A DNA stretch of 34,281 bases from Spiroplasma melliferum (GTDB lineage Bacteria; Bacillota_I; Bacilli_A; Mycoplasmatales; Mycoplasmataceae). This document shows positions 4,544 through 34,281 of this stretch, one piece after another (within the stretch, counting starts at the first letter, position 1; every line of letters starts with the position of its first letter). Position numbers and translations under genes: made by a program. The stretch spans positions 1 through 34,281 of the forward strand of contig CP029201.1 of the NCBI GenBank assembly GCA_005222125.1, written 5' to 3'. The notes beneath the pieces are model-generated. The model worked only from the letters and a program-made list of their open reading frames with translations, had not been told where the DNA came from and searched no databases.

Positions 4544-4890
4544 ATGGGTGAACAAGAAAAAATATTGCTGTTGATAAATAGTTGGGGATATTAAACACCG
4601 AACAAATTAGTTTACTTTTAAATAAAAAAGAAAATGGTACATATAAATTTATTATGAAATTAGTTAGTAATAAGTTTTTAAATGTTGATACATTGCCGAA
4701 GAAAAAATTATTATACTTTAACTAGTAAAGCACCAAAGTCATTTAGGACGTGAGCATAAAAAAAAACATTAAAGTTAATTACTATGAACTTGCCCACCAA
4801 GATATGCTTATCAAATGACTTTGTAGTCAAACCGATATCGAGCACAACCAACTGATACTGTTCGTAATTTGTTGAGTAAAGAAGGTTTAA
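4544..4890 (+). CDS. Short replication-relaxation-like protein, frame broken in this copy
   Basis: Same gene as 19012-19356, where the frame is intact and the description is given. Here several single-base differences interrupt it: one T missing in the GGATATTTAAAC stretch near 4590, one extra A near 4705, an extra C near 4732 and an extra A near 4757. The homopolymer nature of most of these changes suggests sequencing or consensus error rather than a real pseudogene. Confidence 0.7.
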
Positions 4891-4891
4891 T

Positions 4892-5485
4892 ATGACAGAA
4901 AGTTTAAAAATTTTAGATTTATTAAATAAATGAGGATATTTAACAGCCGAGCAAATTGCATTGCTGTTAAATAAACCGATTGAAAGTGCAAAAACTAATT
5001 TAAAAACATTACAGAAAAAAACAACTTTACAAAATAGATAAAAACCACTCGCAAAAAACATTTATTTCCTTTCGCATAAGGGTAATACTTTTGTTGGGCG
5101 AGTTCATAAAAAAAACATTAAAGTTAATTACTATGAACTTGCCCACCAAGATATGCTTATCAAATGACTTTGTAGTCAAACCGATATCGAGCACTACCAA
5201 ACTGAGCGGGAGTTGAAAATGGAAAATGGTAATCTCAATGCTTACCCTGATTTAATCATCACTAAAAACGATGATAGCGAAATTTATGTTGAATTTGAGC
5301 GCACCCAAAAATCGCCCAGTCGCTTTAAGAAAAAGTTAGACGGACATACTAAATGATTACGTAATGGCGGGCAAATATATTGAATTACCCCAACGCAAAC
5401 ACTTGCTAACTGAATACAGCGGCAAATTGACAAAGATGACTTTAAAATAGAACTGCAACAAGTTATTATTTGATCCACACAATAA
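4892..5485 (+). CDS. Replication-relaxation-like protein, local frame disruption in this copy
   Basis: Same gene as 19358-19948. Three extra A bases between about 5015 and 5060 shift and then restore the frame, so only about 15 residues after the N-terminal helix-turn-helix are affected. These are probably consensus errors. Confidence 0.75.
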
Positions 5486-14990: not shown

Positions 14991-15017
14991 TTTTTTATAG
15001 AAAGGTAGGTGTTTAAA

Positions 15018-16532
15018 ATGTGAAAAAAAATTAAAAATTGGCGCGATAAAAATATTAGCAATAAAATTTTTTATTGATTTATTTTTATTTTAGTAATACC
15101 GTTTATGCTTGTATGTTTGATAAATTGTGCTTCGGCAATTATTATTATGTTTTTAAAATACCATACACTAGATTTTAAAAACTTTTATATTGCTTATGCT
15201 GATAAATACAGTTGGTTAATTTCAATTGTTTTGTTTATTATTGCATTCTTATTTTTCTTGTGATTTTATGTAAGTCATAAAATAGATAATATGGATAGTC
15301 CTAAAACAAAACAACAAAAATCAAACAAAGCAAGTGATAAAGAATTTAAAACATTACAGTTAAAAATGCTTGCGCTTAATAATAGGTATGGTATTCCAAA
15401 AAATAATTTAACTCAACATACTTTATTGGTTGGTACAACTGGGAGTGGTAAAACAACAACATTAATGTTTTTAGTAAAACAATTAACTCAAATATTTAAA
15501 CAGACCACAATAATAATTGATGGTAAGGGGGATATTGATTTAATTAATAAAGTTAAACAACTAGACCCTAGTGCCTTTGTTTGAGAAATTGGTGGCACAA
15601 CGGAATATAATCCGTTTGCGACAAAAGATAGTGTTGTATTATCTGATAAGATAATGTCGTTGTTTGATTTTTCCGAACCGCATTATGAAGCATTGGTAAA
15701 TGATTATGTGTTGATTTTAACCGAAACATTAATTAATAAAAATATTGATTTAACATTAGAAAATATTATTAAATATTTTGATATTTCAGAATTAAAACAA
15801 TTAATTAGTAAAAAAAACAGCAATTATGAATATTTAGAAAAAATCAATGAAGATGATATATTAGGTATGCGTTCGCGCTTGAATGTTTATCGCCAACAGT
15901 TAAAAATAAGTATCGGTATTAATAACAACTTATTAGAATTGATTACTAAACATAAAACGATTTTGTTTAGTATTAATTCGTTGATGTATCCCAAATTGGC
16001 GGGTTCTGTCGGAAAAATCATTATCCAAGACTTAAAAGAATTAACCACCCTAAAATCAGTTAATCAAAAAATTAACATTGTATTAGATGAGTTTAATGTC
16101 TTTGCAAGTGAAACCATTGTCAACTTGATAAATAAGTCGCGTAGTTTTAATTATCAATGTTTTTTGTCTTTCCAAACAATCAACGACCTAAAAACAAACA
16201 ATATGAATTTAACAGACACTATTTTCGGAAATGTTAGCACTATTGTTTGTCATAACATTAAAGACCCGAACACGGCGGAATATGTCGCTAGTGTCTTTGG
16301 TACCCAAGAAACCGAAAAACTAACTCGTCAACTTGACTTTAAAAACAACACCGCTGATATGGGTTCAGTGCGTGCGGTGGATGAGTTTATTGTTCACCCG
16401 AACGACCTTAAAACCCTTAAAATTGGTGAATGCTATTTTAAAACCACTCTTTCGAGTGGCAAGTTATTTATTAAAAAAATTGCGGTTGACCCTACTTGTT
16501 TAGATGGTTTAATTCAACACTTAAACAAATAA
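15018..16532 (+). CDS. VirD4/TraG-type coupling ATPase, copy 2
   Basis: Same as 548-2062 apart from G at 16268 where copy 1 has C at 1798. The Pro codon is unaffected. Confidence 0.92.
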
Positions 16533-17188: not shown

Positions 17189-17611
17189 ATGAATCAATTT
17201 ATCGGAATTGGTAGAACAACCAAAGATATAGAAATTAAACAAACAAGTACTGGGAAAGAATATGCCATATTTCAATTGGCAATAGCACGCCCATATTCAA
17301 CACAAAAAGAAACTGATTTTATCCCTTGTCAGGTTTGAAATAAACAAGCCGTAGTTTTACAAAAATATTGTCAAAAAGGTTCTCAAATTGCAATTACGGG
17401 CATTTTGCAATCTTTTAAAAATAAAGAAGATAAAACACAGTGAATAGTCCAAGTATCTAATTATGAATTTTTACATACAAATAATGACTTAAAAAAAGAT
17501 ATTTTACTATCTGAAAAATCAAATGAAATTATTGCCGAAGAGCAAGCAAATTATAGTTCAGAAGATATTAAAGAATTATTCAATGGTGATGATGCCATTT
17601 TATGAGATTAA
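17189..17611 (+). CDS. ssb: Single-stranded DNA-binding protein, copy 2
   Basis: Identical to 2719-3141. Confidence 0.92.
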
Positions 17612-17753: not shown

Positions 17754-18407
17754 ATGCAACAATTACAAAAAGAAGAACAAGTCAATTACCACTTTGTTGA
17801 GATAAATGGGTTGAACTATAAAGTTATTAATCAACTTGATGAGAAAAAACATGTTTCTAATTTTTACTTACCGAAAAAATTAGTTCGCCAACACCCTACC
17901 CGCAAAGACAGTTATAAAGTCAAAATTTATGACAAATTTATTTGTGTACCAAAAATAATGTGTTTTATTGATAAAACTGGTAAATATTTTTTGGTTGGGA
18001 TTGATATGTTTTTTACCTACTGAATTTATAACACGCGTGATAATAACAAATATCGCTTGGCCGGTTATCAAGCAATTAAAGACACTGCAATTAAAGAATT
18101 GCATTATTTAACTGTGTCTGCTAGAAGATACGAAAAAGAACAAGCAACAAACCCATTTTTAAGTGGGTTAACTTACCAACAAGCACGCGAACAAATTTGC
18201 GCTGAAAGCGACAAATTAAAAGCAGAATACCAAACTTATGTACAAAGTAAGTATTCTGCTAATAACATTAAAAAATCATCAAACAGAGAAAATAATTCTC
18301 TTATTGATAAGTTTAACACACACTATGAAAAAAACAAGGGTGATCCACCAAAATTATCCGAAGAAGAACTCGACCAATTATTAGTGGAATTAGACAACTT
18401 AGACTAA
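17754..18407 (+). CDS. Hypothetical 217-aa protein, copy 2
   Basis: Identical to 3284-3937, including the UGA-Trp codon at 18021-18023. Confidence 0.85.
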
Positions 18408-19011
18408 CTCCCCTATCGAGTTCTTCACTCCCCTATCAAAAAAAGTATAAGAACTTGCGTAAAACCACAGATGTAGCAAGACAACGAATAAACAAAATTA
18501 AGATATGGTCATTATCATATCGTTTTTGCTATTTGGTAAATCACCTATTTTTATTATCATTTTTCTTCCAATATATAACCAAAATAAATACCATTACTAT
18601 ATCAAAACAACATAATTAATAAATTTTACATACTTTCTTAAATAAATTTAGCGGTAATTTTATTTAAAAAATACTAATATATAGTATAATTAAATAAATT
18701 AATATTAAACTTTTATTAGTTTATTTAATTTTTTATTATGCTGCGGAACTACAAGCATTTTGGCACGCCAAGCACCCCAAACCCCGCACTCCCAACGTTG
18801 TTGATAGCACGGGGTTTGGGCTTAATGCTTGTAGTTCCGCAGTGGTGGTTATTTATTGGTTGTATTAATTACAATTAATACAACCAATAAATAACCACCT
18901 AGTTCCTTTTTTCTTTTTGCCCGAGCCCTTAAAAGAAAAAAGCGAACACAAAAAAGAAAAAACCCCACCCTGTTAGTATGACAACGGTGGTTGGTAAGGA
19001 GTTGATATTAT
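18408..19011. other. Candidate origin region, copy 2
   Basis: Counterpart of 3938-4543, two bases shorter because of single-base differences around 18553-18585 in the AT-rich part. Hairpins are at 18688-18730, 18741-18842, 18844-18899 (the 56-bp palindrome) and 18906-18942; all arms are identical to copy 1. Confidence 0.6.
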
Positions 19012-19356
19012 ATGGGTGAACAAGAAAAAATATTGCTGTTGATAAATAGTTGGGGATATTTAAACACCGAACAAATTAGTTTACTTTTAAATAAAAAAGA
19101 AAATGGTACATATAAATTTATTATGAAATTAGTTAGTAATAAGTTTTTAAATGTTGATACATTGCCGAAGAAAAATTATTATACTTTAACTAGTAAAGCA
19201 CAAAGTCATTTAGGACGTGAGCATAAAAAAAACATTAAAGTTAATTACTATGAACTTGCCCACCAAGATATGCTTATCAAATGACTTTGTAGTCAAACCG
19301 ATATCGAGCACAACCAACTGATACTGTTCGTAATTTGTTGAGTAAAGAAGGTTTAA
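19012..19356 (+). CDS. Short replication-relaxation-like protein, 114 aa (wHTH half only)
   Basis: N-terminal-half paralogue of the next gene. Residues about 1-70 form a winged helix-turn-helix (ILLLINSWGYLNTEQISLLLNKK, then YYTLTSKAQSHLG). A conserved segment NYYELAHQDMLIKWLCSQTDIEH then appears, after which the protein ends in an unrelated tail (NQLILFVICWVKKV). The PD...ExE half of its neighbour is missing. The start follows AAGGAG, just after the hairpin block, and the stop is 1 nt before the next ATG. The tail covers, in another frame, a segment reading TVRNLLSKEGLI that looks like a further helix-turn-helix remnant, so the junction is a recombination scar or a deliberate truncation. It could act as a regulator or DNA-binding partner of the full-length protein. 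Confidence 0.75.
19222..19311 (+). repeat. 90-bp direct repeat, first copy
   Basis: Identical over 90 bases to 19568-19657, while the flanking parts of the two genes are diverged. It encodes about 30 residues including AHQDMLIKWLC. Confidence 0.9.
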
Positions 19357-19357
19357 T

Positions 19358-19948
19358 ATGACAGAAAGTTTAAAAATTTTAGATTTATTAAATAAATGAG
19401 GATATTTAACAGCCGAGCAAATTGCATTGCTGTTAAATAAACCGATTGAAAGTGCAAAAACTAATTTAAAAACATTACAGAAAAAACAACTTTACAAAAT
19501 AGATAAAACCACTCGCAAAAACATTTATTTCCTTTCGCATAAGGGTAATACTTTTGTTGGGCGAGTTCATAAAAAAAACATTAAAGTTAATTACTATGAA
19601 CTTGCCCACCAAGATATGCTTATCAAATGACTTTGTAGTCAAACCGATATCGAGCACTACCAAACTGAGCGGGAGTTGAAAATGGAAAATGGTAATCTCA
19701 ATGCTTACCCTGATTTAATCATCACTAAAAACGATGATAGCGAAATTTATGTTGAATTTGAGCGCACCCAAAAATCGCCCAGTCGCTTTAAGAAAAAGTT
19801 AGACGGACATACTAAATGATTACGTAATGGCGGGCAAATATATTGAATTACCCCAACGCAAACACTTGCTAACTGAATACAGCGGCAAATTGACAAAGAT
19901 GACTTTAAAATAGAACTGCAACAAGTTATTATTTGATCCACACAATAA
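19358..19948 (+). CDS. Replication-relaxation-family-like protein, 196 aa
   Basis: Likely DNA-processing or replication-initiation protein. Order of elements: winged helix-turn-helix (LLNKWGYLTAEQIALLLNK, about residues 8-65), a linker with H-x-x-x-I-K-V and AHQDMLIKW (about 75-95), then a C-terminal half with YPDLIITK (about 120), EIYVEFERTQKS (about 135), a Lys-rich helix and a strand QIYWITPT. This layout fits the Replic_Relax family (PF13814) as I know it. The PD...E-x-E...K spacing is also reminiscent of PD-(D/E)XK nuclease cores, which is inference. Five UGA codons are Trp. The ATG follows AAAGAAGG. The gene sits beside the hairpin-rich candidate origin, on which it probably acts. Intact only in this copy. 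Confidence 0.75.
19568..19657 (+). repeat. 90-bp direct repeat, second copy
   Basis: Identical to 19222-19311. Recombination between them would attach the first gene's helix-turn-helix head to this gene's catalytic-looking half and delete 346 bp. Confidence 0.9.
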
Positions 19949-19950
19949 CT

Positions 19951-20082
19951 ATGCGCGACAAGAACCAAACACCTACGAAATATGAAACAATTAATAAAGT
20001 ATTTGTTTTTGTCACAAAATATGATAATATTAATTTGGAACAAATAAAAAAGTGAGAGTTAACCACTCCACTATCTATCTAA
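19951..20082 (+). CDS. Mini-ORF, 43 aa, copy 2
   Basis: Identical to 5488-5619. Confidence 0.35.
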
Positions 20083-20108
20083 TTATCCTATTCGGATAAT
20101 TTTTTAAT
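20081..20108 (+). terminator. Intrinsic terminator after replication-relaxation genes, copy 2
   Basis: Identical to 5618-5645. Confidence 0.75.
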
Positions 20109-20210
20109 TATGTAAATAATTTGTAATAGTAGCGTGATTATTTTAAGAATGTCACAAATGATTTGTAACAATTAGAATTTACATATTAATAAAAAAGGGA
20201 GTGATATTTA

Positions 20211-20522
20211 ATGTTTGACTTAAATTGAAGTGCTGTCATTTCTTTAAAATATGAAGATGATGAATTTTATTTATTGTGGCAATATTATCGAAATGGTAAA
20301 AATAAAATTACGGAAAAACAAAAAGATTATATTAAAAATTTGTTTTATCAGTATTATATTCCGAATACGGAACGCCAATTTGAATACTTGGAAAATAAAC
20401 TAAATGAATTAAATACTCGCAGTGCTAGTGCAATTATTAACGGTTTACTACAAAAAGATAAACGATTAATTGCTCTGCTTGTAAAATATTTAGAGCAATT
20501 TAAACCGAATAATTTAACCTAG
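20211..20522 (+). CDS. Hypothetical 103-aa protein, copy 2
   Basis: Identical to 5748-6059; candidate operator palindrome at 20154-20166. Confidence 0.85.
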
Positions 20523-20533
20523 TCCCCTATTAT

Positions 20534-20561
20534 AAAACCCTTATTTTATAAGGGTTTTTTG
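20534..20561 (+). terminator. Intrinsic terminator of the 103-aa gene, copy 2
   Basis: Identical to 6071-6098. Confidence 0.85.
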
Positions 20562-20575
20562 TTGTTTGTTTTCCT

Positions 20576-20607
20576 ATCGTCGTCTGTGGCGCATCGAACG
20601 TTATTTT
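20576..20607 (-). repeat. 32-bp inverted repeat, right member, copy 2
   Basis: Identical to 6113-6144. Confidence 0.7.
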
Positions 20608-20667
20608 TGCGGGTAAATGGTAATAAAAATATAAATATTTAAGTAATTTATTAATATTTATATTTTT

Positions 20668-20743
20668 TGTGTATTATTATGTATTAATGTGTATAATATT
20701 TATGTATTAGTACTTATTAATACACACTAGTAAGTATTATAAT
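20668..20743. promoter_or_regulatory. parA upstream repeats and promoter, copy 2
   Basis: Identical to 6205-6280. Confidence 0.5.
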
Positions 20744-20765
20744 TAAAAATGAAAGGAGAATAAAA

Positions 20766-21548
20766 ATGAAAAAAATAACATTTGCTAACAGTAAGGGTGG
20801 AGTTGGCAAAACCACATTAACAATTAATGTTGCTCAATTATTATCCCAAATTGGAAAAAAAGTTTTATTATTTGACTTTGACCCGCAATCTAATTTAACA
20901 AATACTTTGTTAGAAAATCCGATTGATACAAATAATATAACTAAATGAATTTTGGGAGCAGATAAAGATGACTTAATTTCAACAATTTTAGAAACTAGAA
21001 TATCAAATATTTTTTTAGTACCATCATATTCCAAAATGGTTTTAGAAACAAATAATATAGTTTTAAATCAACCTAATTCGGAATTTAAATTTAAAATGAA
21101 TTTAGAAGAAATTGAAAAAATATTAATTAATAAATTTGATTATATATTTTTTGATACATATCCATCTATGAATACAATTTTATTAAATGTTTTATTAGCA
21201 TCAGATGAAATTATTGTTCCAATTGAACCACATTCATATAGTTTTGAAGGTATTACAACTATGTTTAAACCTTATTTAGAAACAATAAATAATTCTAAAA
21301 AAATGGGAATGAATATAAAAAATAATATTAATTATTATGTTTTAAATAAAATTCAAAAAAACAAACTACATCAAAGTGTTTTTGAACTTATTTCCCAAAA
21401 TGAAATTGGTAAAAAATTGTTAGATACACATATCCCCTTATCTGCTACTAAGCAAAAAGAAACAATGTTGCTTAAATTCGCCGCCATAACCAATAACAAC
21501 CCAATTTATAAGTTAGTTATGGAATTAACTAATAAAGGAGTGATTTAA
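20766..21548 (+). CDS. parA: ParA/Soj-type partition ATPase, copy 2
   Basis: Identical to 6303-7085. Confidence 0.93.
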
Positions 21549-22334: not shown

Positions 22335-24686
22335 ATGAAAAAATTATTAAGTATCTTAACCATAACAACCTTGACAGCGAGCGTTCCTGCTCCGTTGCTT
22401 GCCAACACACCCTTAACTCGCAATAAACGCGATGTTGGGACAACTGCCAAAGATGTCACAAATAATTACTGAACTTTTATTGCTAGTATAAGTAAAGAAG
22501 ATGCTACAAAAAACAAAGATAAATATTATTTTGTTATTTATAAAAATAAAGGTGAAAGTAATTGACAAATATATAAGATGCAAATGGGAAAACCAAACGA
22601 CAGACCTATTTTTGGTGAAACCGTTGAAAGTCATAAAGCATTTTATCGTTGGGATGGTGTTGGCGAACCTAATTTACCAGAAATAAATTCATTAACTGGT
22701 GAAATTATAAATTGAAAAGGTTTTGATATAAAAATAAAAGAAAAATATGGAAAAGAAAATATTGTTGTGTGAAATGGAATAAATGCAAGGGGAGATAATA
22801 ATTTTTATTTTATTATTTGACGTGGTAGAAAAAGTGATAAATGAGAAATCGTAAAATATAAAAACATAGGTCTAAATACTTCAAATACAATAATTGCAAC
22901 ATCTAAAACTGGTGCTGAATTAGATAGAGTAAGTCATAATTTTAGTTTTAGTAATGGTAGTGAATGAGCAGATGCCAAAAATGATGATGGTACATATTTT
23001 AAATCAGTTTATCGTTGGGATGGAGTTGGTGAACCTAATTTACCAGAAATAAATCCTAACACTGGAAATATAACAAACTGAAAACAACCAACGAAAAATG
23101 ATTTTCAACAAGGAATTTTGTTTTCGCTTGTGGATGGTTCAAAAACGGCGACTTGGTCTAATAACGGTATGCGTTTGACAGTTGATGGTGAAACAAACAT
23201 CAATATCAATAACCCAAATGTTACGGAAGTTTATTGAGATGGTTCTTTGCAACCGCAATTAAGTAAACAATGGAAAATCAATGTTAAACCCGAAACTGCA
23301 CCACGAGATCATAAGTTAGTTATCAAATACAATATCAATGGGACAAAATACACAAGTGAAGATATTATGGTGTCGATGTTGGCAAAAATTGACTCAACAC
23401 CAACACCAGTGCAACAAAATCTAAGTGATTTAATCAAAAACACTGATTTAGGAAATATCATTGATAATAATGATGACACTATTTTCTTAGCAGTAAATAA
23501 GGCAAATAGTGAAATTATTGATGATTTTTCACAAATTGAAATAACAAAAAAAGTTAATCACTCTGCAACTTTATCAGCGAAACCAGATAGTAAAAGTTAC
23601 AAAGGTTCAGTTGATATTAAATACAATGTGGTTCCGGCAACAGTGGTTGATTTAAAAATTGAATTAAAACCAACTGTAAGCAGTGCGATAGTTAATAAAG
23701 ACTATTTGGCACAACTTGACAGTAGTAAAATGACAAATAAAGTTGATACATTTTACTATGCGAATAGTGAAAGTGTTATCACAATGGTTAAACCAACAGA
23801 TAGCAGTGTGATAACTGGGGTGGTGTATGGTTGTGATGATAAATGAAATAAAACATCACAATCAAGCAACATTGACCCAGCAAAGGGTATTAAACTTGAT
23901 GGGTCACAACTTGGAGCGGTTCAGGGAAGATATTTAATTGACTTAAAAAACGAACTAGGACAAACAAATACTATTTATTTACAAATTCATAGTGAGAAAG
24001 ATGAAAAAGCAAAAGCATATTGAAATACTGATAATGGTAAACAGTTTGAACAGTGAGCACAAGACCAAGAACAAGGATACGAAAATATCCGTGGTTCTAG
24101 TGCTAGTCAATTGAATAATTTGTTTGAATTATCGAAGACTTGAAAACAAAGTTTAAAACATTTAGACCTAAAATTAGATAACTTTGTTGTTGATAACATT
24201 AAAAATGTTAGTCAAGATGAAATTGATAACTATAAAACAAAACTGCTTGCTAGTGTAAAAGCCCAAGTTGAAAAGTATGTTCCCGGTGTTGTAGAAAAGA
24301 CCGACTATGTTATCAGCGTTGATAATCTTGTTGCGGGTGATTGAACTACAAGCAAAGATGTCAAAGTTCAAGCGGTTGATGGTAGTACAAAACTGTTAAG
24401 TTTTACTGTTAAAACTATTCCAGTGCAACAAAAAGAAGAAGTAACAGCACTAGCATCAACACCAGTATCAAGTGATAAGGGTGGAAAATCAATTTGAAAA
24501 ATACTGGGGATAGTTGCTGGTTCGCTGGCGGGTCTTGGTTTGGCGTATTGGTTGTTTAAAAGATTTGTCTTTAATAAATATTTTTTACCAAAAATAAAAA
24601 GACGCCGCCATCTTAAATTAGTTGAACAAGTTAGAAAAGAAGAAGCCGAAAAAGACGCTCAAAACAACAAGGGAGGTGAAGAATAA
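22335..24686 (+). CDS. ARP/SARP-type surface adhesin, copy 2
   Basis: Identical to 7872-10223. Confidence 0.88.
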
Positions 24687-24955
24687 TGATGACTTTGTTA
24701 GCGACAAGTGGGGTCGATGACTTACTTAACAAAATTTTAGGTATCGCAATGCCGGTGTTAATTGCCATCGCAGTTGTATCCGCAATTATTATGATTGGTG
24801 TTTATGCGATTGGGGGTAAATTTAACGCTGATAGTGGCAACCGCAAAGAAACAATTAAAAAAGTGATGTGGGTTTTAATTTGCTTGTTAATTGTTATTCT
24901 TGCGAGTGCGGTTGTCTTGGCGTTTAAAGATACTATCGCCCCAATCACAAGTTAG
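24686..24955 (+). CDS. Pilin-like VirB2-type protein, copy 2
   Basis: Identical to 10223-10492. Confidence 0.75.
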   Translation: MMTLLATSGVDDLLNKILGIAMPVLIAIAVVSAIIMIGVYAIGGKFNADSGNRKETIKKVMWVLICLLIVILASAVVLAFKDTIAPITS

Positions 24956-24966
24956 GTGGTGTAATT

Positions 24967-26532
24967 ATGTTGTTACGAAAACGAAAACAAGATAATTTAA
25001 CGGTTATAAAATCAAAAAAACCAATTTTAAAACAAGGGTTAGAGCGATTTGTAGCATATTATTTTAAAAAAATATTTACAATATTAGCAATTGCGATGAT
25101 ACCCTTGTTAATTATTGGTTGTATTGTGATTGCAATATTATCGGCGATATTGTGGTTTTTGCCAAATACTGAAACATCAAGTAACATTCAAACAGTTTTC
25201 TCTAATACTTTGAATGTTGAAACAGTAGAAACAACTGGCGGGTCAAACATAATGGGGAGCATTATTGGCTGAGCGATAAATAGTTTTTGTGCTATTTTGT
25301 ATCTTATTTTTATCAAACCGATTGTTTGATTGCTAGGTGGAATGCAAGATGTCGTCTACTTTATTGGTGGGGGAGCTTTAAGCGAACAATTATTTAGTAT
25401 GAATAATATTAGCACGATATATTGATTGCTGTTTGGTATTGCGATGGCAATGTTTATTGTCATTATTGGCACAAAAGCGATTGCGTGAATGTATAACAAT
25501 CGCCGCCACGAAATGAAAGCAGCGATAACAAATGTTCTTATTATCATTATTGCTATTCCGCTAATACCGACATTGTTTATTATGGCAAATACAATTATGA
25601 CAATGATTGTTAAATTGTTTTTGCAAAATGCTCCGATTGATACAAATAATATTGCTTTGGCGATTTTTAATAGTAGTTTTATGAATGGTGTTCATCATTT
25701 TAGTTATATTCCCGTTTCGTGGACATTTTCAGATAGTGGTAATTTTAGTTATATTATTTGTTTGGTCTCGGAGTGTTTTATGGTTTATATTATGTTTACT
25801 GTTTGTATGTTTTTGTTTTGGCGGGTAATTGAATTGTTTATCTTATTGTGTTATTCGCCCGTGGTGGTTGTAATGAGTGTCGCCGACCAAGGACAACAAT
25901 TTCGTAATTGAAAAGATATGGTCTTTGGGCGATTTATAAGTTATGCCTTTATGTTTATAACTTATAACATATTTATTATGAGTATTGCGGTGTTAGGGCA
26001 AGTGGCAACATTTATGCCAAATTCTTTATCGCAACCAATCTTTATCTTACTTGGTATTTTTGCTTTTGGGTTTGCCGTTGCAAAATCACCACAAATTATA
26101 ACGAGTTTAATTGGTGGTAATACAGCGATGAGCGATAGTATCGGTAATCTGATGTCCTTTGGAATGGCAACTAACCTTGCCAAAATTGGGGGAAAATTCG
26201 CGTGAAAATCGGGTAAATTTGCTGCTCGCAATACAATTGGTAAACCAATTGGTTTAACCCAAGGGATAAGTCACGCGATGAAAAGTGGTACACCATTTAA
26301 AGAAGCAACAGCAGGAACTTTATTCGGTGGTTTTAACCCTAATACGGGTGGTGTTGCGGGTGCATTTGCTGGTCAAGCAATTAAAACCAAAGATAAAGTT
26401 ATGACAAATATCAGTGATTATCAAGCATTCAATGAACAACGAAACCAGAAAAACAATAAAGATAGTGTTTTAGAGAAAGCAAGCACTAAAACAACAAAGA
26501 AAGATAAAGGAGACAAAAACAATGGAAAATAA
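24967..26532 (+). CDS. VirB6/TrbL-like membrane protein, copy 2
   Basis: Identical to 10504-12069. Confidence 0.8.
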
Positions 26533-29044
26533 CACAAAAATAATCACTAAAAAAGCAAGTAAAGTACGATTTACTGTCTCAAATGTTTTGGGCGGAATTG
26601 GTTGACCAGAACTTTTTATTATTTTTGTTGGCGTTGTTTTGATAACTTTATCTTTGACTTTGCTTGCAAAATTATCGCTAATTGCGGGAATTATTAGTGC
26701 TATTGTATTTGCTGTTTTGAATATCTTTTTCATAACACCAAATAAAAACGGTGATAAACTATATTATGTTATTTTTATTGCCCTTGGTTTTTTATTTAAA
26801 CCAAAAAAACACAACATAGAAAATGATAGCGAAATACAAATTATCAATAACCGTGTTGTTTTTGATAATAAACAAATTCTTATTTATAAAATAAATGCTG
26901 TTGATTTAACATTGTCAACGCAAGAAGAACGCAATACACCGATTTATGACTTTTCAAATTATTTGCGTGCCTTAAATTTTGATTTTGAAATCATCAAAAT
27001 TGATAGTAAGTTGAATTTTGACAAAAATAAAAACTATCTTGCACAGACCTTAAAGCAAGATAGTTTAAAAAATTCACAAAAACATCAATTAAATAATTTT
27101 TTGTCGATGTCTGAATACTTGGAAAACCAAGATTTAAAGTTAGAACAAAATTATTATTTAATTGTTTTTACAAATAACAATGATAAAAAACTTGAATTAT
27201 CCTTGTTATCATACAATCAACATCTTTCTTTGACTTTGCCAACAAGCAAAGAAATAAAGAAAATTGTTGATAAAAAGATTATACCAACAAATTCAACAAA
27301 CTCATCAGTAGCAACATCAATTAAAGAAACTGCAAAATATTTGAAACTGGATAACAATAAATTTGTTAGTTATTTTACTGTTAATCAATTTCCGTTGACT
27401 GTTAATGATATGTGATTAAGTAATTTTAGCGAAATAGAAAATGTCAATATTTCTATTCGTGTTCGGCATTTAGACAATATGACAGCGTTTAAATTGCTTG
27501 ACCGTGCCATCCGAAGAGCACAAGACCAAGAAACTAAAAAAGCAAGTGAAGATATTGAATATAACTTATATTTACAAAACTTTAATGAGTTATTACAACT
27601 TATTCAAGTTGGGGGTGAAACCTTGAAAATGGTTTCAATTGTTTTCACTTGCTTTGCTGATAGTAAAACTGATTTAGACCAAGTTGTTTCAAATTTAAAA
27701 AATGAAATGATAAGAAATCGTTTTACTATTAATGATTTGACATTTCGCCAGTTTGCAACTTATCAATGTTTGTTATTTAACAATAATGATAAATTAAAAA
27801 ACATTGAGCAAGAAATGGCGACCATTACTCTTGCGAGTGCTTGACCGTTTCCAACTAAACCGTTAAATGATCCACAAGGACTAATAATTGGGGAAAATGA
27901 ACAACTACAACCAATCATATTTGACATCAAAACCAAGTCATCAATAAGAGCAAGTCATAACGCTTTTATTGTGGGTCAGATGGGGTTTGGAAAAACATTT
28001 AATGTTAAAAAACAATTAAATTGATTATATTGTAATAACACAAAAATCTATATTATTGACCCCCAACGCGAATATGGTGGTTTTGCCAATTATCACGGTG
28101 GGGAAATTATTGAATTTGGTAATAACCCAAAGGCAAAAATTAACCCCTTAGAAATCTTTACTGATAATTTTTCCGAACATATTTTGTTGTTAGAACAATG
28201 GTTTAAAAATTTGTATAGTGATTTAACAAATATTGACCTTGCTAAATTGCAAGAATATATTATTCAGTTGTATAAAAACTTTAAAATTACTGCTGATACA
28301 AATTTAAGTAAATTAACTCGAAAAGATTATCCAATTTTAAATGATTTATATAAATTGGTATATCAAAAAGAACAAGATACTTTGTTAGAAAAAATGTTGT
28401 GAAAACTAACCAAAGGAGCAGATGGCACATTGTTTAATGGTGTTAGTACCTTAGAAATTAAAAGCGACTTGATTGTTTTTGATATTTACAATATGGCAAA
28501 ATCAAAAACAATTGCTAACGCACAAATGTATTTGTTGTTAGCGTTGCTTGACCGTGTTATGAAAAAGAATAAGAAAAATAATTTAACCTTGCCACCGGAA
28601 GAACAAAGTTGAGTTTGTATTGCGGTGGATGAAGCACATTTATTAATTAACCAAGATAATCTGCTTGCCCTTAATTATTTATTTACTTTATCGAAAACTT
28701 GTCGTAAATTTAACGGAATTTTATATATTTTAACGCAAAGCATTGGCGACTTTACCCAGCACGGAGAAAATGTTAAACGCCAAGCGCAGGGAATAATTGA
28801 ACAGTGTACTTATCAATTTATTCATCACTTGAATTCAATTGGTTTGCAAAATTATACTGAATTATTGACTGATAACAATATGATAAATGCCTATGAGAAA
28901 AATGTTATTTTAACTCCTAAAAAGGGACTGTGTTTGTTTAGTATTAATGATAAACGCTATATTTTGCAAGTTATCGCAACAAGTGAAGAAATCAAAGCAA
29001 TTGGTACCCAAGAAGACATTAATAATTTAGGAAAGGAAATATAG
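26522..29044 (+). CDS. PrgI-VirB4 fusion ATPase, copy 2
   Basis: Identical to 12059-14581; it spans the arbitrary boundary between units 2 and 3. Confidence 0.92.
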
Positions 29045-33474: not shown

Positions 33475-33819
33475 ATGGGTGAACAAGAAAAAATATTGCT
33501 GTTGATAAATAGTTGGGGATATTTAAACACCGAACAAATTAGTTTACTTTTAAATAAAAAAGAAAATGGTACATATAAATTTATTATGAAATTAGTTAGT
33601 AATAAGTTTTTAAATGTTGATACATTGCCGAAGAAAAATTATTATACTTTAACTAGTAAAGCACAAAGTCATTTAGGACGTGAGCATAAAAAAAACATTA
33701 AAGTTAATTACTATGAACTTGCCCACCAAGATATGCTTATCAAATGACTTTGTAGTCAAACCGATATCGAGCACAACCAACTGATACTGTTCGTAATTTG
33801 TTGAGTAAAGAAGGTTTAA
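33475..33819 (+). CDS. Short replication-relaxation-like protein, copy 3
   Basis: Intact, same as 19012-19356. Confidence 0.75.
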
Positions 33820-33820
33820 T

Positions 33821-34281
33821 ATGACAGAAAGTTTAAAAATTTTAGATTTATTAAATAAATGAGGATATTTAACAGCCGAGCAAATTGCATTGCTGTTAAA
33901 TAAACCGATTGAAAGTGCAAAAACTAATTTAAAAACATTACAGAAAAAACTTTTACAAAATAGATAAAACCACTCGCAAAAACATTTATTTCCTTTCGCA
34001 TAAGGGTAATACTTTTGTTGGGCGAGTTCATAAAAAAAACATTAAAGTTAATTACTATGAACTTGCCCACCAAGATATGCTTATCAAATGACTTTGTAGT
34101 CAAACCGATATCGAGCACTACCAAACTGAGCGGGAGTTGAAAATGGAAAATGGTAATCTCAATGCTTACCCTGATTTAATCATCACTAAAAACGATGATA
34201 GCGAAATTTATGTTGAATTTGAGCGCACCCAAAAATCGCCCAGTCGCTTTAAGAAAAAGTTAGACGGACATACTAAATGAT
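33821..34281 (+). CDS. Replication-relaxation-like protein, partial and frame-shifted
   Basis: Same gene as 19358-19948, cut by the window end. Near 33941 the CAACTTT of copy 2 reads CTTTT, a net loss of 2 bases that breaks the frame after about 45 residues. Copies 1 and 3 disagree with copy 2 at the same place in different ways, pointing to unreliable consensus here. Confidence 0.7.

Follow-up and report, generated by a model that had tools for sequence, protein, structure and literature searches.

A pair of adjacent genes on a Spiroplasma melliferum plasmid very probably consists of a MOBC-type conjugative relaxase, encoded by the downstream member (ORF B), and a decayed tandem paralogue that has lost its nuclease tail, encoded by the upstream member (ORF A); we put the probability of this reading at about 80%. 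The evidence comprises the homology of B to known proteins of this type, a common residue set, the modelled fold, the presence of type IV secretion genes on the same plasmid, and the composition of the end of A.

The window, that is, the whole stretch of 34,281 nucleotides that was analysed, is contig C2 of a three-contig genome of 1.41 Mb and holds around 2.37 tandem copies of a plasmid unit of 14,463 b, and all 47 plasmid records that resemble this unit are from Spiroplasma. Three copies of the A/B pair are present, namely, an indel-bearing one at 4544-5485, that at 19012-19948, and one at 33475-34281 that is cut short by the window edge. Because the concatemer copies in C2 and in the sister contig C1 contain frameshifting indels, genes called on the early copies should not be relied upon. 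The forward strand of the unit encodes a VirD4/TraG-type coupling protein (15009-16532; PF10412, PF12696), a single-stranded DNA-binding protein, SSB (17189-17611; PF00436), a ParA-type partition ATPase (20766-21548; PF13614), a pilin-like conjugation protein (24686-24955; NF045849), a transmembrane, VirB6-like conjugation protein (24967-26532; NF045889), and a VirB4-type ATPase (26522-29044; NF045975), the last three being over the cut-offs of their models. Thus, the core components of conjugation in mollicutes are present on the plasmid. The 783-aa protein encoded at 22335-24686 has a C-terminal match to the Spiralin domain (PF05215, E 1.8e-8) and a terminal hydrophobic stretch, and several diverged tandem copies of its gene are found in C1. 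Positions 1-57604 of C1 also form a tandem concatemer, in which a stretch of around 19.4 kb recurs about 23.3 kb further on. Between C1:1-13807 and the C2 plasmid, the identity is 99.3%, which perhaps reflects a cointegrate or an assembly join.

Read under NCBI table 4 (genetic code 4, TGA=Trp), ORF A (19012-19356, forward strand) encodes 114 aa with a winged-helix head and no nuclease tail, and ORF B (19358-19948, forward strand) encodes 196 aa, with a winged-helix head at around residues 1-69 and a nuclease tail at around 73-196. As the initial annotation had described, the two genes lie 1 nt apart, with one base between the TAA of A and the ATG of B. After its winged-helix region, A continues with ...HKKNIKVNYYELAHQDMLIKWLCSQTDIEH and then stops, and the sequence of B includes ...AYPDLIITKNDDSEIYVEFERTQKSPSRFKKK. 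Residues 71-100 of both proteins are encoded by 90 consecutive identical bases (19222-19311 in A and 19568-19657 in B, forward strand), which in B span the head/tail crossover zone. There are Shine-Dalgarno-like motifs ahead of A (AGGAG) and of B (AGAAGG), and these sites make it plausible that the two genes are, as had been proposed, co-expressed at the origin.

Both genes had been described as replication-relaxation-like from sequence alone. A search with the Pfam model PF13814 (Replic_Relax) matched B at E 7e-4 and 20.2 bits, below the cut-off of 25.3, and did not report A, so that B is, by its sequence, related to this family without being a member by Pfam's rule. One of 13 relatives was reported by PF13814 at E 0.01, and two of the seven reference proteins scanned passed (TraX of pTEF1 with 28.5 and a Liquorilactobacillus protein with 30.4). 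The NCBIfam MobC model NF041423 matched B at E 1.8e-7 and 30.7 bits, below its curated cut-off of 200 bits. Since this model describes one subfamily, and since pTEF1 TraX and a Paenibacillus protein score only 23.6 and 50.3 with it, the failure of B excludes that subfamily and not MOBC. As both matches were below curated cut-offs, the homology of B was tested further. A tblastn search of 72,556 plasmid records with B matched 40 from Spiroplasma and 7 from Paenibacillus (47 in total); the mobility typing of the plasmid database gives all 40 of the former as non-mobilizable and all 7 of the latter as mobilizable. The one Paenibacillus record examined of the seven is typed MOBC and was matched from B at E 3e-3, and the reciprocal search with its protein found S. 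citri plasmids at E 6e-5. Furthermore, when a profile of 13 Spiroplasma homologues was compared by hhalign with one of 10 Bacillota proteins around pTEF1 TraX (by record typing, seven MOBC, two untyped, and one MOBP,MOBQ), they matched at E 3.5e-17 over 172 columns, and head and tail each matched on their own. For the tail alone, the E-value was 9.4e-11 and the score 66.4, against a maximum of 16.6 in 50 column shuffles.

In a joint alignment of 19 rows, which took in 9 of the 13 Spiroplasma sequences and all 10 from Bacillota and left out four Spiroplasma rows, only six columns are invariant. In B, these correspond to H84, E104, D119, E133, E135, and K139, whose codons, counted from the ORF start, lie on the forward strand within 19607-19774 (19607-19609, 19667-19669, 19712-19714, 19754-19756, 19760-19762, and 19772-19774, respectively). 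The second S. ixodetis gene, one of the four rows left out, lacks H84, E104, and D119. A larger set of 20 Spiroplasma rows keeps E133 and K139 throughout, with E135 in 18 rows and D119 in 17; family paralogues exist in which D119 is changed to N or E135 is changed. The tail has a low dN/dS, 0.03-0.10, between B and three homologues of the S. citri group. When the joint alignment was searched across the phylum, 9 of 295 genomes matched, five of them through the head only.

A review relates the MOBC relaxases to PD-(D/E)XK enzymes and describes TraX as having a winged HTH at its N terminus and an active site confirmed by mutagenesis (PMC12857230). TraX of the pAD1-type plasmids (MOBC; pTEF1 homologue WP_002387611.1 from Enterococcus faecalis) shares the winged-helix head with B, its residues H102, E129, D152, E170, E172, and K176 in pTEF1 align with H84, E104, D119, E133, E135, and K139, and pTEF1, like the window plasmid, carries type IV secretion genes. 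On the other hand, the two proteins are only around 24% identical, B is shorter (196 vs. 261 aa), and the coupling-protein gene of the window lies around 2.8 kb away from B with other genes intervening. The residues mutated in TraX reportedly include those equivalent to the conserved set of B. The same residue set is found in Paenibacillus and Bacillus proteins from MOBC-typed plasmids (for example, NZ_CP013208 and NZ_CP089150), where the typing is that of the plasmid record rather than of the gene; here, the gene lies immediately ahead of that for the coupling protein, and the proteins tested are 19-25% identical to B. The record of CloDF13 has no annotated MobC and is typed as non-mobilizable. 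Also close to B are the pF genes of S. citri and replication-relaxation proteins (pSci1-3, the pScp plasmids, and pSKU146), which are orthologues located in the same position past an inverted-repeat region; unlike the A/B pair, they are mostly single genes, have heads or tails of other lineages, and lack the ribosomal-gene patch described below.

The initial annotation had suggested that the PD...E-x-E...K spacing of B could form a nuclease-like core, and structure prediction supports this. AlphaFold modelled B with a mean pLDDT of 87.9, and residues 1-69 of the model resemble proteins of the MarR type (Z up to 12.8, rmsd 1.6, 68 aligned). Because nearly all of the VIA-align matches listed for the whole model concerned the head only, the tail was modelled alone (mean pLDDT 86.7). 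Its order is helix, strand, a strand starting beside D119, a strand ending at around E133-x-E135, helix, and strand, which is the core topology of PD-(D/E)XK enzymes. The first ten Foldseek matches of the tail include NucS, EndoMS, VRR_NUC, PspGI, HJC, and BamHI, with a modest best E-value of 3.7e-3, and the best VIA-align match is EcoO109I (Z 7.5, rmsd 3.7, 113 aligned, also modest), in a list that contains NucS, BstEII, TnsA, the nickase Nt.BspD6I, and others. In a sequence search of the PDB with the Spiroplasma alignment, the tail found only EcoRV, at E 0.67. The modelled tail shares with solved nucleases such as NucS, EndoMS, EcoO109I, PspGI, and Nt.BspD6I an Asp where the second strand begins and an E-x-E where the third ends, with identities of 6-17% and weak statistics. 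The usual PD-(D/E)XK motif is E-x-K, and the tail of B differs in having E-x-E and a displaced lysine. A modelled fold that is shared with nucleases does not by itself show function.

The proposal that B is the equivalent of a relaxase can thus be narrowed to a MOBC-type relaxase on the strength of the profile match and the residue set, and no other recognised relaxase came to light in the genome with the four profiles searched. Neither PF03432 (Relaxase) nor PF02486 (Rep_trans) matched anywhere while their positive controls responded, Mob_Pre (PF01076) gave none with a control that was itself silent, and all six matches to NF041423 lie at copies of B. Of the two outcomes that the initial annotation had named as refuting its idea, a fold unlike that of nucleases and a recognised relaxase elsewhere, neither was thus encountered. 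S. citri plasmids have been described as having conjugation genes and, among their coding sequences, no recognisable relaxase (Saillard 2008, PMC2386487). One homologue is named a relaxase, on the basis of annotation, in a 2021 paper, and we found no publication linking MOBC with Spiroplasma in a search of papers available without subscription, among which the 2009 relaxase classification is not counted.

The inverted-repeat region situated shortly before A (18741-18942, unstranded) is a candidate oriT. It contains the paired arms 18741-18759/18824-18842 and 18776-18796/18800-18820, a perfect palindrome (18844-18870/18873-18899), and a hairpin (18906-18917/18931-18942). In the S. citri study, the region upstream of gene pF is named IRR and raised as a possible transfer origin (Saillard 2008, PMC2386487). 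By eye, a similar layout, with a G+C-rich hairpin and a second hairpin near the start codon, is seen at 11 of 13 other genes and is absent at those of S. poulsonii (L033) and Danaus (L043). TraX binds direct repeats, as stated in the review cited above (PMC12857230), and direct repeats of this type were not found as such here. An Rfam search of 18300-20800 returned nothing. That 18741-18942 is the oriT is a guess. The genes at 17754-18407 and 20211-20522 flank the inverted repeats and the relaxase, and neither has a Pfam match at the curated cut-off; the 103-aa protein encoded by one of them is weakly similar to NF006302, a model for DNA polymerase III delta (E 4e-4). In the S. citri pScp plasmids, an inverted relaxase fragment of 60 b, covering around residues 92-111 and 95% identical, is located on the opposite strand, more than 1 kb ahead of the relaxase gene (L027:1899-1958 and L028:1753-1812).

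We infer nicking by B, its target site, and its use in conjugation along the following lines. The winged-helix head would bind plasmid DNA, and the PD-(D/E)XK-like tail would nick one strand in a metal-dependent manner through D119, E133, and E135, and probably E104, H84, and K139. The likeliest target would be the inverted-repeat region, and the nicked strand might then pass through the VirD4 coupling protein to the channel formed by the VirB4, VirB6-like, and pilin-like proteins of the same plasmid.

Alternatively, B could be a nicking initiator of plasmid replication and the inverted repeats a replication rather than a transfer origin. B lies just downstream of the repeats, the cumulative GC skew of the unit climbs with almost no switch, our profile searches recognised no Rep-type initiator in the unit, and one-directional replication has been inferred for related plasmids (Saillard 2008, PMC2386487). 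Against such a role, the title of a 2008 paper reports a novel replication protein for S. citri plasmids. This protein is reportedly pE and not pF. Relatives of B also occur on plasmids that have replication genes apart from them; pTEF1, for example, has a replication initiator A. In addition, the relaxase family co-occurs with VirB4: of the 198 genomes of the order, the 12 with the family all carry VirB4, compared with 80 of the 186 without it (Fisher 7e-5, with relatedness ignored). Within Spiroplasma, 5 of 14 genomes have the family and 9 do not; because at least eight of these nine have VirB4 (one was unsampled), a transfer system can exist without it. We regard a role as replication initiator as improbable. 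Still more improbable is that A and B are transcription regulators of the BlaI/MecI/CopY family whose tail serves as a sensor or dimerisation domain. They are annotated in this way in pSci1, pSci3, and S. ixodetis, Penicillinase_R is matched by 5 of 13 family members, and there is the alignment of the head with MarR-type regulators described above, but all of these matches rest on the winged-helix head, whereas the tail strongly matches MOBC-type tails and has the acidic residue set and the nuclease-like modelled fold.

With regard to A, the initial annotation was right that it lacks the PD...ExE half, and the idea that it is an intrinsically head-only gene is ruled out by a full-length A-type gene at C1:39562, which is followed by B and has a degenerate motif (PN for PD and EFD for EFE); nothing marks A as evidently a purpose-built partner of B. 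The 3' half of A is gone, and its end is instead a 50-b exact copy of rpsP, a ribosomal protein gene (19308-19357, forward strand, identical to chromosomal C3:280881-280930), from the part coding for AQPTDTVRNLLSKEGL. One end of this patch has AAGAAGGTTTAAT, which the intact A/B junction of C1 contains as well, and GCAC is shared at the other, so that, from the sequence, it looks like the tail was replaced by a piece of rpsP through short shared sequences. The nuclease tail of A would then have been lost when these 50 b took its place. The patch reads as if chromosomal DNA had templated the repair of the plasmid. We found five tandem or near-tandem arrangements of family members (C2, C1:39562, G028, S. 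ixodetis pSHM_1, and pSKU146), in each of which a complete or nearly complete member (that of G028 is without around 11 residues at its start) is paired with a defective one. The defects differ, with the tail cut in C2 and G028, Asp changed to Asn in C1 and pSHM_1, and the head missing in pSKU146, a pattern that seems to fit repeated duplication and decay.

An assembly or amplification artefact could be suspected behind the truncation and its patch, since the assembly is imperfect and C1 and C2 are tandem concatemers with indel-bearing copies. Nevertheless, the identical junction is found at three places in C2 and at one in C1, the untruncated pair is present elsewhere in C1, and the patch is exact, with one end in a 13-b stretch common to the undamaged A/B junction; we give an artefact little credence. 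Alternatively, A might be a working protein that, without a tail, binds the DNA recognised by B and acts as its competitor or repressor. Its open frame and good Shine-Dalgarno-like site are consistent with this, as is its codon constraint relative to pSKU226 (dN/dS 0.10 over 100 codons), although the constraint may be older than the truncation. Moreover, the truncated form is known only from this genome (of 35 PLSDB records with a match, not one reaches 80% coverage of a query across the junction), most of the related plasmids examined have no such gene, and the defective copies found elsewhere have different defects, all of which makes a working A unlikely.

Apart from its decay, the relaxase family shows signs of modular exchange. 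For instance, in nucleotides, the heads of pSci1 and pSci3 are 100% identical and their tails 55%, the pSci3 tail is 96% identical to that of S. phoeniceum pSPh387, and the pSPh387 head is 93-94% identical to that of S. poulsonii. In four sequence triplets, maximum chi-square breakpoints fell at residues 84-89, 84-86, 93-94, and 89-93, and in a fifth at 125-126 (0 of 1000 shuffles reached the score in each case); in a sixth, sAtri2 was not supported as a recombinant, as 219 of 1000 shuffles reached its score. The triplets were picked after the identity table had been seen. The four breakpoints at 84-94 fall in the stretch HQDMLIKWLC, which had been highlighted as the AHQDMLIKW segment. Together, these breakpoints and the contrasts in head and tail identity indicate that heads and tails have been exchanged between plasmids.

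A further step would be to regard these relaxases as two exchangeable modules, with copies such as A keeping spare DNA-binding heads in reserve. Recombination within the 90 b that A and B have in common could fuse the A head to the B nuclease and thereby change the DNA site recognised, which, speculatively, would resemble the reshuffled specificity parts of some restriction systems. The crossovers at residues 84-94 in four of six triplets and the exact A/B repeat there are compatible with this. Against it stand the upstream inverted repeats, which do not follow head type, and the window plasmid, in which no switched head/tail state was seen; we consider the idea unlikely. We also considered whether the inverted-repeat region and the head move together as one recognition cassette and rejected this, because identity over the upstream 290 b tracks the species group and not the head type, which disfavours a simple cassette model. 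For example, pSci1 and the S. phoeniceum gene are 91% identical upstream and 56% in the head. The mosaicism of heads and tails offers a concrete, checkable idea of how DNA recognition by a relaxase could change.

This kind of relaxase is already known, and what is added here is that Spiroplasma plasmids very probably encode one, together with its residue set and the exchange of its modules. With a relaxase, its likely catalytic residues, and the adjoining inverted repeats named, conjugation in Spiroplasma, a genus of wall-less associates of plants and insects, becomes testable by single mutations. Our results also suggest that the non-mobilizable typing of the 40 Spiroplasma plasmid records is wrong. 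Elsewhere in the order, the chromosome of one genome (G004) carries at least eight scattered, near-identical copies of the tail only (for example, at 242194-242550 of its contig C1), which are possibly a mobile fragment. Finally, in S. kunkelii pSKU226 (L020:3403-4467), a gene annotated as a Shedu immune nuclease, an anti-phage defence protein, lies directly 3' of the relaxase homologue.
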